From the NCBI GenBank assembly GCA_016932815.1, contig JAFGCC010000013.1:1-64000 (forward strand): a DNA stretch of 64,000 nt, given 5' to 3'. Shown here piece by piece: positions 12,650 to 25,161 of this stretch. The position numbers and the translations under genes are program-made. The DNA is from Microcaldota archaeon (lineage in GTDB: Archaea > Micrarchaeota > Micrarchaeia > Anstonellales > Bilamarchaeaceae). Positions within the stretch are counted from its first letter, which is position 1. Each line of letters starts with the position of its first letter. Below the pieces are notes generated by a model. The model did no database searches. It was not told the DNA's origin and saw nothing but the letters and a program-made list of their open reading frames with translations.

Positions 12650-15649
12650 TCACTCTTCTGCCTTGCGCGAGCCTGGGAGGAAATTCTTCATCGCCAGGTA
12701 CAGGATTGCCCCTCCGATTGCCAGCGCAAAGAGCCAGCCTGCCGCAGAGAGGCTAAGCCGGGTTTCCCCTTCCTCCCCCGCATCCGCCCGCCCGGATTCT
12801 GCGCTAAAGAGGAGGTTGTAAATCTGGTCTGGGATTGAAGAAGCGGGAAGAACCCCCTGGCCTTCCCTCTCGCCAGCGCCATCCCCGCCTTCACCGCCTT
12901 CGGAGCCTGGAACTTCCTGGGCCCCTTCGGGCTTGTTGCTTCCGCCTAGTGTCCCACCCTCTGGGGCCTGCGGCGGGGACTGCCCTTCTTCTACGCTCAC
13001 GCAAATATAAGAGCTGCATTCCTCATCCTCCTGGCAGTCGGAATCGTAAACGCACTCGGGAGGCACGCATTCGCAGGAAACGCAGGTTTCGCCAGCCCCG
13101 GTGCACCCGGAATCCGAAAGGCACGCGTCTCCCGGAAGCACGCACCCTCCATCAAGGCATTCCTCGCATTCTCCGCAGCCGGAAGCGCTAGTGCACCCAG
13201 GCTCATAGTAAACTTCAACGCATTCGTAATCCTTGCAAACATGCCCATCCCCGCAGTCCGAATCCCGGGTGCACTCTGGAGCGATGCATTCGCAGGAAAC
13301 GCAGGTGTAGCCTGCTTCGCAGTCCGAATCGGAGAGGCACGCGCCGCCTGGGAGGGCGCACTCATGGGAGCGGCAGGCTTCGCAGTCCCCGCAATCCGAA
13401 GAAGTGAAGCACTCGTAATCTCCCGCGTCGCTCCCCCCATCTTCATCTGGGGAGGGGCTAAGCGCCTGCACCAGGGGCAAATAATCGGTCATCCCAAACG
13501 CGAAGAAATTAGTTTCCCCGATTCCATCATCGTCTTCATCCGTTCCCGTGTAGTTGGAATACCAGTTCCCCCCGGAGCAGTTGCCGCCTACTATGGAGTG
13601 GTTGCCTTCCCCGCAGGAGAGGGAGGTGTTGAGGTAATTGTCCGAACTATCACAATATATGGGGATGCCGGAATCAGTTGCATTGAGTATGTTGTCGTAA
13701 ACCAGGGTCCCCGTGCTATAAGGCAGGGAGAGCTGGTAGAGGAGGTTGTTGTAGAACTTGTTGTGGGCCATCGTAGCGCCCGTGGTATAATAAAGCTTGA
13801 AGCCGCTCCCGTTGTAAGCAGGGTACCCAATCCACGTACTGTCCCATGGGTCGATACTGGAAGGCTGGCTGAAGCCGTAGCCGTTGTTGTATGCCGTATT
13901 GTTCTCCACTATATTGTAATCGGCCCAGTACATCTCGAATCCGTCTCCCTTGTTGTTGTATGCGGTGTTGTTTGCGAATACCGAATTCCAGGCGCAGATG
14001 TAGACGCCCTGGAAATCGTTGTTGTAGGCGGTATTGCCGAAATATAGGTTATCGTTGTACCAGACGTTGATGGAGAAGCCCATGAGGGAACTGTGCCCGG
14101 TATTGTTCTCAAAATTGTCGTACTCCGAGGAAGCTGCCACGAATGAATAGCACTCGTTGTCGTAGGCGAGGTTCCCTGAAACGTTGGTGTGGTTGGAGTA
14201 CTCTCCCACGAAGAATCCGTACCTGGTCCCGTGCGCGGTTGAGGAGCTTACGGTTGCGTAATTGGTGTGCTCAAGATAAAGCCCGTTGTTTGGAATCGTG
14301 GATGAGGGAACCAGGGTGACGTTGGTTATGTTGGAGTAGTGGGCTGCGCAAAGGAAAATCTCCGATGCGGTAATGCCGCTTAGCTCAACCGGCTCATTGT
14401 AGAAATATATCGGGTACCCCTCCGAACCGGTAAGGTTCTCGATTACGTGGTTGCAATGGTTGGGGTCGGTGTCCCAGGCGATTGAGTGCCCGACATCGAA
14501 ATCCATGAGCTTGTTGCCAGCGGCAGTGCTGTTTGCGATTGTGACGTTCTCGGACTGGTGCAGGAGGAACCCGTACGCATTTCCGGAAGACTCGGAGTCC
14601 GTGATTGTCACGTTTTCAGAATAATAGACGATTATGCCATTGCTGTATTCGCTCCCGCTGTCCACGGTTACGTTGGTGAGGGTCGAATCGTCAGCATTGC
14701 AAAGGAAGACCATGGACGCTTCCAGGTTGCTCCAGGAAACAGATTCGTTTGAATAATATATGGGGAGCCCGCCGCTCCCGATGTTGTCTACGAAGAGGTT
14801 GTTGCAGGAGCCCACCTTGTCCCCATACATCCAAATGTCCCGCCCCCACTGCCAGTAGGAAAGCGAGCCGCACCCGTGGCGGGAAATCGTGGAAATCGTG
14901 TTGTTGAAAAAGACGTTCCCAGTCGGCGAGCCCGAGTCCACATTAAGCACCGTGAGCCCATCTGGGACGTTGTATATCGTGTTGTTTAGGATGCTGTTGT
15001 TCTGGCTTGGGACATTCACCCCGCTGTGGAAGTCTATTGCGGACTCAACGCAGTCGTGGAGGATGTTGTACGATATTGAATTGCGATGCGAGCCGCCGAT
15101 TTCTATGCACTGCTGGGCAGTTTCGTAGATGGTGTTGTTTTCAATGTAGCTGTCGGTGGAGTAATCAAAGGTTATCCCCTCATGGGAGTTGTTGTACACG
15201 GTATTGTTTGAGAAGGTGCTGTTTGCAAAATAGTAGAGGTGCACCCCGTCATAGGTCGTGTTGAAGATTGTGAAGTTGGAAATTAGGCAGTTGCTTGTGG
15301 TCCTAAAGCGGACTCCGTCGCGGAATCCGTTAATGCCGCAATTGAGCGCGGTCACGTTTCCCCTGGAGCTAGCATACACCCCATATCCAGTAGTGCCCCC
15401 GTATATCCAGTTGCCCTGGCAGTCAAAAACCTTGTTGCTAAAGCTTGTGGGGTTGTTTATGCAGCTCCCGCTCGCAGATGATAGCGAGGAGTTGAGGTAA
15501 ACCGTGCTATAGCTCCCGTTGTTTAGTGCGGAAATGCAGTCTGCGCACGTGGTGTTGCAGTAGAGCGCGCCATTGTATTCATGGTACGCGAAAGACACTC
15601 CGAGAGCTAAGAATAATACTGAGGCCAGGAAAACTGCGGATTTTTTCAT
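12650..15649 (-). CDS. Large surface protein: signal peptide, parallel beta-helix, Cys-rich repeats, C-terminal membrane anchor
   Basis: About 999 aa from ATG 15649 (MKKSAVFLASVLFLALGVSF, a clear signal peptide, with an AT-rich TATA box about 25 bases upstream). The track ORF adds 31 upstream residues that I reject. Residues about 70-720 are NosD/PbH1-type right-handed beta-helix repeats dense in Asn, Thr and Tyr (ENNTIYE, NNTAYNN patterns) and many N-glycosylation sequons. Residues about 750-900 contain repeated CxxDxDC and CVSCEC Cys-rich modules resembling Dickkopf/EGF-like knots. A Glu/Gly/Pro linker leads to one TM helix (FALAIGGAILYLAM) and a basic tail. Probably an outer-surface adhesin or glycan-binding protein. 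Confidence 0.8.
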   Translation of the reverse strand: MKKSAVFLASVLFLALGVSFAYHEYNGALYCNTTCADCISALNNGSYSTVYLNSSLSSASGSCINNPTSFSNKVFDCQGNWIYGGTTGYGVYASSRGNVTALNCGINGFRDGVRFRTTSNCLISNFTIFNTTYDGVHLYYFANSTFSNNTVYNNSHEGITFDYSTDSYIENNTIYETAQQCIEIGGSHRNSISYNILHDCVESAIDFHSGVNVPSQNNSILNNTIYNVPDGLTVLNVDSGSPTGNVFFNNTISTISRHGCGSLSYWQWGRDIWMYGDKVGSCNNLFVDNIGSGGLPIYYSNESVSWSNLEASMVFLCNADDSTLTNVTVDSGSEYSNGIIVYYSENVTITDSESSGNAYGFLLHQSENVTIANSTAAGNKLMDFDVGHSIAWDTDPNHCNHVIENLTGSEGYPIYFYNEPVELSGITASEIFLCAAHYSNITNVTLVPSSTIPNNGLYLEHTNYATVSSSTAHGTRYGFFVGEYSNHTNVSGNLAYDNECYSFVAASSEYDNFENNTGHSSLMGFSINVWYNDNLYFGNTAYNNDFQGVYICAWNSVFANNTAYNNKGDGFEMYWADYNIVENNTAYNNGYGFSQPSSIDPWDSTWIGYPAYNGSGFKLYYTTGATMAHNKFYNNLLYQLSLPYSTGTLVYDNILNATDSGIPIYCDSSDNYLNTSLSCGEGNHSIVGGNCSGGNWYSNYTGTDEDDDGIGETNFFAFGMTDYLPLVQALSPSPDEDGGSDAGDYECFTSSDCGDCEACRSHECALPGGACLSDSDCEAGYTCVSCECIAPECTRDSDCGDGHVCKDYECVEVYYEPGCTSASGCGECEECLDGGCVLPGDACLSDSGCTGAGETCVSCECVPPECVYDSDCQEDEECSSYICVSVEEGQSPPQAPEGGTLGGSNKPEGAQEVPGSEGGEGGDGAGEREGQGVLPASSIPDQIYNLLFSAESGRADAGEEGETRLSLSAAGWLFALAIGGAILYLAMKNFLPGSRKAEE

Positions 15650-15824
15650 GTTCTTGGAAACTGCGATATAAAATAAAAATCTATTGCTTGGAGCCCCCTG
15701 CCTCCAAGGGATTCTGCGCTTGCCATGCGGGGAATTGGGCAATAAGGCGCGCAGGGGCGTGCGCCTATGGGAGTTCTGCGACTTTTATAAGTGTATGCCA
15801 ATAGAGTATATGACGGTGTGAACG

Positions 15825-18182
15825 ATGAAGGAACTAATAATCCACGCAGAACGCGTTTCATACGAAGTTACAAAGGAAACAAGGCTCGCAGAGAAAATCT
15901 CCGAGGAAGAAAAAAAGGGGGAGATGGAGAACGCGCTCTGGGTTAGAGTTTCCATGGAGAAGGGGGATGAGAACAGCATCGATTCCCTCGTGCAAAAAGC
16001 GGTTGCGGACATTGAGGGGGTTTCGGAGCAGGTGAAAACCCGGAACGTGCTGCTCTATCCGTATGCGCACCTTTTGATGGGCTCAAAGCCCGCCCCGGCG
16101 GATGCGGCAATAAAGATATTGGATAAAATGGCGCAGGAGTTGCGCGAGAAGGGCTTCAACGTAGTCAAGGCTCCCTTTGGGTGGTACAAGAAATTCTCGG
16201 TTTCCTGCAAGGGGCATCCCCTTAGCGAGCTCTCGCGCGTATTCAGCGGGAATGACGCGGGAACGGCTGCCGGAGTTGGGGAATTGGGGATTGAAGAATC
16301 AAAAGAAGCTGCCCTGGAAACCGCAGCCCACGTGATTTATGAGAGCGAGAGGCAGCTCCTAAACAAGGAATTCATAAGCGTATCCAAAAAAGAAGATGGG
16401 CTAGGGACAGTGCTATGGCGCGGGATGAAAGATATCAGCGATGAAGACATCAAAAAAGCCATAGATAATGCGAACGAGTTGGCGGCAAGGGGAGAGCCTG
16501 TGCGCGTGGAATTCATGAGCAGGGATGAGGCATTCAAAAAATGCGGGGACTTTTTCAAAAACGCAGTGCCCCAGAATGCGGAGAGCATCCGCGTCGTTTC
16601 CATAGGCAATCTTCCCCCAGAACCATGCAAGAACAAGCACATCCCTGACATCAACCTAATCAAGGAGATAAAGCTGGAGAAGGTAAAACGGGACGGTGAA
16701 GACGTCAAGGTTTGGTTTTCGGTGGACTTATCCTCCCAAATCAAAACCGATGAGAAAGTTTCCGAGAGCCTGAAACAGGAGAGCCAATTGAGGAGTGTTT
16801 TCTACGTGCTTACCCCGGAAGGGGAACTCGTGGAATCGGACAAGTTCGACTATTCGGGGCACGCCAACCTGCAAAAGTTCGTAACATACGAAACCAAGAA
16901 GACGCGCGCATACGAAAAGGAGCCTCCCCACATAAGGATAATGAAGGAGCAGGAGCTAGTAGACTACGAGCCGGGAACGGATGCGGGAAACTTCCGCTGG
17001 TACCCAAAAGGCAGGCTCATAAAGAAGCTCCTTGAGAGGTCGGTAACCGATTTCTGCATAGACTATGGGGCAATGGAAGTGGAAACGCCCCTCATGTATG
17101 ATTACGAGCACCCTTCCCTCAAAAAATACCTCAACCGCTTCCCCGCAAGGCAGTACGTTGTAAAGAGCGAGAACAAGGAATTCTTCCTCCGCTTTGCAGC
17201 CTGCTTCGGGCAGTTTTTGATGAGCCACGACATGGTCGTAAGCTACAAGCAGCTTCCTTTGCGCATGTTCGAACTAACCCGCTACTCTTTTAGGAGGGAG
17301 CAGACCGGGGAGCTTGCAGGCCTAAAGAGGCTGCGCGGATTCACCATGCCGGATATGCACGGGGTGCTGGCTGATATGAACCAGGCGAAAGCCGAATTCG
17401 AGTCCCAGCTTGAAGCGGGAATGGAATGGCTGGGTTTCGTGAAGCTCCTTGATGGGTGCGAAGTGGGCTTTAGGGTACTCCGCGAATTCTACGAGGAGAA
17501 CAGGGAATGGTACACTTCGCTCGTAAAGAAAATCGGCAAGCCCATCCTGGTGGAACTCTACGACGAGAGATACGCGTATTTCGTTACCAAGTTTGAGTTC
17601 AACTTCGTGGATGCGATGGACAAGGCAAGTGCCTTAACCACCGTGCAGATAGACGTTGAAAACTCCGAAACCTACGACCTCAACTTCGTGGATGAAAAAG
17701 GCGAGAAAAAAAGGCCGCTCCTAACCCATGCTTCCATCTCGGGAAGCGTGGAGAGGGTTGTTTATGCGCTCCTGGAAAAAGAGGCGATGCGCATGGAAAA
17801 AGGGGAGAAGGCCCAGCTTCCGCTCTGGCTCTGCCCCACGCAGGTGCGCATAATACCGATTTCGGAGAAGCACATTGAGTTTGCAGGGGAGGTGCTCAGC
17901 CAGATTGGAGAAGGGGTGAGGGCGGACCTGGATGATACCCCCGAATCCCTTGGAAAGAAGATACGCAACGCACAGAAGGAATGGGTGCCCTACATTGCAG
18001 TAATCGGGGACAACGAAATAGAATCCGGCAAGGTTTCTGTTACAATCCGCGAAACCGGCGAGAAAGTGGAGATGGGGGCGATGGAGCTTGCAAGCATGGT
18101 GCAGGAAAAAACCCAGGGGATGCCATTTGAGAAGCTCTCGCTGCCAATCCTGCTCTCAAAAAGGCCGATATTCAGGGGTTAG
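15825..18182 (+). CDS. thrS: Threonyl-tRNA synthetase, archaeal type, with an extra AlaX-like SAD domain
   Basis: 785 aa, roughly 160 residues longer than usual archaeal ThrRS. Residues 1-145 are the archaeal DTD-like editing domain (FSVSCKGHPLSELSR). Residues about 150-310 resemble the second additional domain of AlaX/AlaRS/bacterial ThrRS: ETAAH aligns with HxxxH, then PVRVEFMSRDEA, RVVSIG and CKNKH in place of CGGTH, so C and H are kept and one H is E. From about residue 330 the normal class II core follows (KEPPHIRIMKEQELVDYEPG, motif 2 FELTRYSFRREQTG, motif 3 HASISGSVERVVYALL), then the anticodon-binding domain. It charges tRNA-Thr; the second editing-like domain is the oddity. Confidence 0.93.
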   Translation: MKELIIHAERVSYEVTKETRLAEKISEEEKKGEMENALWVRVSMEKGDENSIDSLVQKAVADIEGVSEQVKTRNVLLYPYAHLLMGSKPAPADAAIKILDKMAQELREKGFNVVKAPFGWYKKFSVSCKGHPLSELSRVFSGNDAGTAAGVGELGIEESKEAALETAAHVIYESERQLLNKEFISVSKKEDGLGTVLWRGMKDISDEDIKKAIDNANELAARGEPVRVEFMSRDEAFKKCGDFFKNAVPQNAESIRVVSIGNLPPEPCKNKHIPDINLIKEIKLEKVKRDGEDVKVWFSVDLSSQIKTDEKVSESLKQESQLRSVFYVLTPEGELVESDKFDYSGHANLQKFVTYETKKTRAYEKEPPHIRIMKEQELVDYEPGTDAGNFRWYPKGRLIKKLLERSVTDFCIDYGAMEVETPLMYDYEHPSLKKYLNRFPARQYVVKSENKEFFLRFAACFGQFLMSHDMVVSYKQLPLRMFELTRYSFRREQTGELAGLKRLRGFTMPDMHGVLADMNQAKAEFESQLEAGMEWLGFVKLLDGCEVGFRVLREFYEENREWYTSLVKKIGKPILVELYDERYAYFVTKFEFNFVDAMDKASALTTVQIDVENSETYDLNFVDEKGEKKRPLLTHASISGSVERVVYALLEKEAMRMEKGEKAQLPLWLCPTQVRIIPISEKHIEFAGEVLSQIGEGVRADLDDTPESLGKKIRNAQKEWVPYIAVIGDNEIESGKVSVTIRETGEKVEMGAMELASMVQEKTQGMPFEKLSLPILLSKRPIFRG

Positions 18183-25088: not shown

Positions 25089-25161
25089 GCCTCCGTAGCT
25101 CAACGGTAGTAGCGATCGCTTCGTAAGCGATAGGTTGAGGGTTCAAATCCCTCCGGGGGCT
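25089..25161 (+). tRNA. tRNA-Thr (CGT)
   Basis: Acceptor GCCTCCG/CGGGGGC (one T-G pair), anticodon stem ATCGC/GCGAT with loop TTCGTAA (anticodon CGT), T-arm GAGGG-TTCAAAT-CCCTC. Five bases after tRNA-Ser, so likely co-transcribed. Its last base touches the stop codon of the convergent hydrolase. Confidence 0.94.

Follow-up and report, generated by a model that had tools for sequence, protein, structure and literature searches.

The window analysed here, a stretch of 64,000 nucleotides from a 1.25-Mb genome in 25 contigs, carries thrS, a gene for a threonyl-tRNA synthetase (ThrRS) in which two editing-type domains precede the catalytic core. The open reading frame is complete, without interruption, and its ends lie exactly at 15825 and 18182. 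The domains and motifs of the protein are collected in Table 1 together with the gene for the tRNA that is its likely substrate. Directly upstream of thrS, on the opposite strand (12650-15742, -), a 1030-aa protein is encoded which is predicted to be secreted or located at the surface; it contains NNT-rich repeats resembling a parallel beta-helix and, towards its C terminus, repeats rich in Cys.

Table 1. Features of thrS and of the tRNA-Thr gene in the window
Feature	Position	Strand	Basis
thrS, 785-aa ThrRS: DTD + SAD + archaeal core + anticodon domain	15825..18182	+	ORF, Pfam/NCBIfam
Archaeal DTD-like editing domain (tRNA-Thr_ED), residues 1-138	15825..16238	+	PF08915 1.1e-42, DTD tree
Lys122, counterpart of P. 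abyssi K121	16188..16190	+	invariant in alignments A4, A5
Inserted SAD module, residues ~141-308 (~165 residues)	16245..16748	+	gap in relatives; linkers predicted to be disordered
ETAAH (165-169), first metal-site motif; Glu165 for first His, His169 kept	16317..16331	+
CKNKH (268-272), second metal-site motif; cf. CNKEH of AlaX-S	16626..16640	+
Archaeal linker + class II catalytic core	16761..17840	+	PF00587; invariant A4 columns
Anticodon-binding domain, residues 673-762	17841..18110	+	PF03129 2.7e-22
tRNA-Thr(CGU), likely substrate; U73, U4-G69 wobble pair	25089..25161	+

Domain organization of the ThrRS

The protein matched the archaeal kind of threonine--tRNA ligase in NCBIfam (NF003068, PRK03991) with 815 bits. 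It showed the features of an archaeal-type ThrRS, namely an N-terminal tRNA-Thr_ED, an archaeal core with a Cys/His/His zinc site and an anticodon domain. The class II core was assigned by Pfam to residues 444-652; its zinc ligands Cys460, His512 and His635 are kept and were invariant in alignment A4. The DTD-like domain named in the original prediction is intact, with the motif CKGHPLSELSR at residues 128-138, and in a DTD tree it grouped with its own genus. In P. abyssi ThrRS, exchange of K121 for Met severely compromises editing (PMC4491819). Conservation of the corresponding Lys122 suggests that the DTD domain of the window enzyme deacylates Ser-tRNA(Thr); judged by their sequences, both the DTD domain and the core look functional.

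A whole-protein search of 59 near relatives returned only two matches over the full length, with 58% (G034) and 47% (G006) identity. These two genomes were assembled independently and encode the same architecture, thus an assembly chimera is very unlikely for thrS. Among named records, the closest that have this DTD+SAD fusion are Candidatus Micrarchaeota MAGs.

Fold and pocket of the inserted domain

The extra region behind the DTD domain had been proposed to be a SAD domain. Pfam tRNA_SAD matched residues 255-292 below its cut-off of 24 bits in the protein scan (E 4.5e-4, 20.6 bits) and slightly above it in the genome scan (25.3 bits), and the homologous insert of L016, another carrier of the fusion, scored clearly above it (29.6 bits). 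Residues 165-322 partially matched AlaX-M and archaeal AlaRS in NCBIfam. AlphaFold, run on residues 138-312 with an alignment of 17 sequences, returned a confident SAD fold (pLDDT 89.4, pTM 0.85). A Foldseek search of the PDB with this model ranked AlaX-S, the short, free-standing form of AlaX, from P. horikoshii first (1v7o, E 5.5e-10, TM 0.85 by target length), followed by AlaRS editing domains and, lower, by the N2 domain of ThrRS (1tje, E 2.7e-5); a profile built from the SADs of the three fusions had its top match again in AlaX-S (1v4p, 3.8e-8). Model and profile assign to the insert a SAD fold of AlaX-S type rather than of ThrRS N2 type. The proposed likeness to AlaX is thereby sharpened to AlaX-S. 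Segments with pLDDT <50 that are predicted to be disordered (144-154 and 305-317) border the insert on both sides in the full-length model, as expected for a module held by flexible linkers.

The metal-site motifs of SAD domains comprise H73, H77, C182 and H186 in E. coli ThrRS N2 (PMC4041444) and the ligands His9, His13, Cys116 and His120 in AlaX-S (PMC3680381). The motifs ETAAH and CKNKH of the window enzyme were found at the residues listed in Table 1, the latter being closer to CNKEH of AlaX-S than to CGGTH of AlaRS. In all three fusions HxxxH is absent and ExxxH stands instead, with CxxxH present. The first ligand His is thus replaced, as had been noted, but this is not random loss, the substitute being Glu in three of three proteins. 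Glu165, His169, Cys268 and His272 are invariant in all of them, and the domains are merely 37-55% identical. Of 145 ungapped columns, 40 are invariant; if these were spread at random, the chance that four chosen positions all fall among them would be about 0.005. This figure makes the case look too strong, since residues of a pocket are conserved above average. Wherever the aligned AlaX and AlaRS rows of the phylum cover the first ligand His, it is kept. In the free AlaX proteins of the phylum, the Cys ligand is mostly exchanged for Asp; this local parallel suggests that a carboxylate in this site need not abolish function. In E. coli N2, the equivalent of the replaced His is H73, the one most damaging to mutate, and H73A lowers kcat 7000-fold (PMC4041444).

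Distribution of the fusion and other modules beside the DTD domain

Of 301 Micrarchaeota genomes, three have a fused SAD. No further DTD+SAD fusion turned up in 395 genomes sampled across the archaea, about 94 of them from other phyla. DTD-bearing ThrRS frames in 80 genomes of other phyla measured 567-671 aa with one exception, an N-terminal open-frame extension. SAD-positive frames of 740-792 aa in distant archaea proved to be AlaRS and not ThrRS. Three further long candidates (G355, 753 aa; G035, 810; G221, 712) owed their length to N-terminal frame extensions or long linkers and contained no second editing domain. The assumption that archaeal ThrRS normally carries a DTD domain only was too simple, as several genomes of the same order possess an ordinary bacterial-type ThrRS with TGS and N2.

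Five congeneric genomes encode a ThrRS without the insert, its DTD domain and core being 64-80% identical to those of the window enzyme; the SAD is therefore dispensable. On the core tree the three SAD carriers were scattered among relatives without SAD, which corresponds to a single gain with about 14 losses or to three gains. The SADs of two carriers (L001 and L002) are 55% identical and the AlaRS SADs from these genomes 61%, so this pair may plausibly have diverged since the ancestor of the family. The SAD of the third carrier, L016, is more diverged (37-39%, the AlaRS SADs from the genomes concerned being 58-67% identical). The core of L016 is 55-56% identical to ThrRS of other phyla and 51-53% to its own family, and its DTD domain is nearest to that of a genus-mate (64%); L016 therefore looks like a mosaic. 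The best outside matches to the SAD overall were free AlaX proteins of 235-241 aa, and no closer outside source of the SAD was found in 29 genomes of a phylum with a ThrRS core near that of L016. One old fusion followed by many losses and transfer of a cassette are both candidate histories.

Two correlates of the fusion were examined and rejected. The window genome gave no match to a free AlaX or to an INS protein; however, a missing free AlaX does not explain the fusion, as G006 has a fused SAD together with a free AlaX and the SAD-less congeners gave no free AlaX match either. The acceptor stem of tRNA-Thr was rejected because its U4-G69 pair is common to three of the four SAD-less congeners examined.

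The position behind the DTD domain is occupied by other modules elsewhere. An 804-aa ThrRS from one genome (L035, G018:C57:500-5500) combines DTD, INS and archaeal core, with INS at the insertion point of the SAD. This genome belongs to the genus of G006, and the AlaRS SADs of both are 90% identical. The INS domain (PF04073, 1.4e-14) is YeaK/ProXp-ST1-like and 39% identical to E. coli YeaK; its invariant catalytic Lys is changed to His, and this Lys was kept in 12 of 12 free INS proteins aligned. Five genomes (G028, G030, G049, G042 and G073; loci L031, L032, L033, L034 and L139) encode a ThrRS in which DTD and N2 precede a bacterial-type core, the archaeal DTD standing in place of TGS. All four motif residues of N2 (HxxxH, CxxxH) are replaced in 5/5 of these proteins, whereas the motifs are intact in 8/8 TGS+N2 enzymes of the same order that lack DTD. 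At least one hallmark catalytic residue is thus gone in every DTD-adjacent second module found, in three types and nine proteins, which do not represent nine independent events.

DTD-like sequences were also seen outside complete synthetases. A 368-aa frame (L141, G032:C36:147500-149500) joins a degenerate DTD-like domain to a part that resembles a SAM-dependent methyltransferase by sequence, and a weak match similar to it lies at G075:C42:18355-18672. Genomes of family f21 carry, besides a full ThrRS, additional free-standing DTD-like (tRNA-Thr-ED) frames of about 140-220 aa (for example G262:C1:135615-136025, G264:C38:37157-37567 and G267:C6:65491-65901); several of the profile matches cross one in-frame stop (TGA or TAA).

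Function of the fused SAD and comparison with known enzymes

The original prediction had left two options, a two-site editing enzyme and a SAD that has become structural, and the evidence tilts to loss of canonical hydrolysis. The reading we prefer, with confidence about evenly balanced, is that the DTD domain proofreads Ser-tRNA(Thr) and that the SAD, a module captured from AlaX-S, serves mainly to bind the tRNA end in its pocket and does not hydrolyse canonically. The DTD-like domain would be the working site that strips Ser from tRNA(Thr), and an AlaX-S-type SAD would have entered the flexible linker behind it. This SAD would retain its fold and its pocket (Glu165/His169/Cys268/His272), with Glu at the position where canonical hydrolysis depends most on His, and would serve as an auxiliary module that grips the CCA end or the acceptor stem and may contain a structural metal, rather than as a canonical hydrolase. 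The intact hallmarks of the DTD domain and the confident, AlaX-S-like fold of the SAD argue for this reading. A captured, non-canonical module is favored by the residue loss in all DTD-adjacent modules, by the effect of H73A and by a precedent in Plasmodium: the AlaX-S-like domain of TrpRS, its motifs lost, was reported to be required for the binding of tRNA and for aminoacylation, not for editing (PMC3680381). Against it stands the invariance of the four pocket residues, as decay would not preserve His, Cys and His. Furthermore, H73A differs from H73E, and zinc can be bound by Glu.

An alternative is a true two-site editing synthetase, in which mischarged tRNA(Thr) would be hydrolysed by the DTD domain and also by the SAD, the latter by means of a non-canonical Glu/His/Cys/His metal centre that clears Ser-tRNA or an error missed by the DTD domain. 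We regard this as a serious but less probable explanation. The four pocket positions are the same in three diverged proteins, the free AlaX of the phylum tolerates a carboxylate ligand, and the window genome matched neither a free AlaX nor an INS protein. Deacylation of Ser-tRNA(Thr) by AlaX-S was reportedly found by Novoa in 2015. AlaX-S is the AlaX form described as being without tRNA specificity (review PMC11295145), and so would fit beside a ThrRS as a natural partner if the second site works. However, the lost His is the one whose mutation damages E. coli N2 most, hallmark residues are changed in every class of second module next to DTD, congeners that share the tRNA-Thr acceptor stem manage without SAD, and an intact DTD domain leaves the selection for a second site unexplained. 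The more specific proposal that one synthetase has two evolutionarily unrelated editing domains, both active in cis, of which the second acts through a Glu/His/Cys/His centre on a different mischarged tRNA(Thr), appears slightly less probable still; we know of no SAD enzyme with such a centre. The SAD might also be an evolutionary passenger without important function, captured in the linker and repeatedly lost. Its very patchy occurrence, with the many losses or repeated gains counted on the core tree, and the strong divergence of the L016 copy would agree with this, but the identity of the L001 and L002 SADs, near the AlaRS yardstick, argues for purifying selection, the pocket is invariant and the frame is open in three genomes, which renders a passenger improbable. 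A misreading, in which a bacterial-type enzyme with an ordinary N2 domain or a chimeric assembly has been taken for the fusion, is hardly credible: N2 likewise has a SAD fold and gave a structural match, albeit a weaker one, but the core is archaeal, AlaX-S came first in both the fold and the profile search, and the fusion recurs in the two independent assemblies.

ThrRS is a textbook case of unrelated domains that solve the same proofreading problem in different lineages. One archaeal order combines DTD with an AlaX-type SAD, with a YeaK-type INS and with a dead N2. These combinations are natural experiments on the coexistence of two editing sites, and they also probe whether a captured editing domain stays for hydrolysis or for tRNA binding. 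The fusion is neither common nor, in the papers that could be searched, already described: open-licence full texts, whose silence is weak evidence, gave no description of it under two-editing-domain ThrRS, under ThrRS of Micrarchaeota or DPANN, or under AlaX- or YbaK-ThrRS fusions. The parts all belong to known families; their combination appears to be new.

The window enzyme shares with ThrRS of the Pyrococcus abyssi type the DTD domain with its catalytic Lys, the linker, the archaeal core with its zinc ligands and the anticodon domain, and differs from it by the SAD of ~165 residues between DTD and core. With AlaX-S of P. horikoshii (1v7o/1v4p/1wnu) it has in common the fold (TM 0.85), a profile match of 4e-8 and a CxxxH motif with charged residues; in contrast to AlaX-S, its SAD is fused inside a ThrRS, has Glu for the first ligand His and is only about 22% identical. 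The N2 domain of bacterial and eukaryotic ThrRS belongs to the same SAD superfamily, with the first motif in register, but it is the weaker structural match, retains HxxxH, is preceded by TGS and is joined to a different core; Pfam found no TGS in the window ThrRS, where DTD precedes the insert and the archaeal core follows. Plasmodium falciparum TrpRS (PMC3680381) likewise carries an AlaX-S-like domain on a synthetase that does not need one, and there, too, the first ligand His has become an acidic residue. Its domain is N-terminal, has lost all four ligands and has no second editing domain beside it, whereas the SAD of the window enzyme keeps three ligands plus Glu in the presence of DTD. 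Finally, SepRS with an N-terminal tRNA-Thr-ED (PMC8762117) is a further case in which a DTD-like editing domain was shuffled onto another synthetase arrangement; the newcomer in SepRS is the DTD domain, whereas in the window ThrRS it is the SAD.
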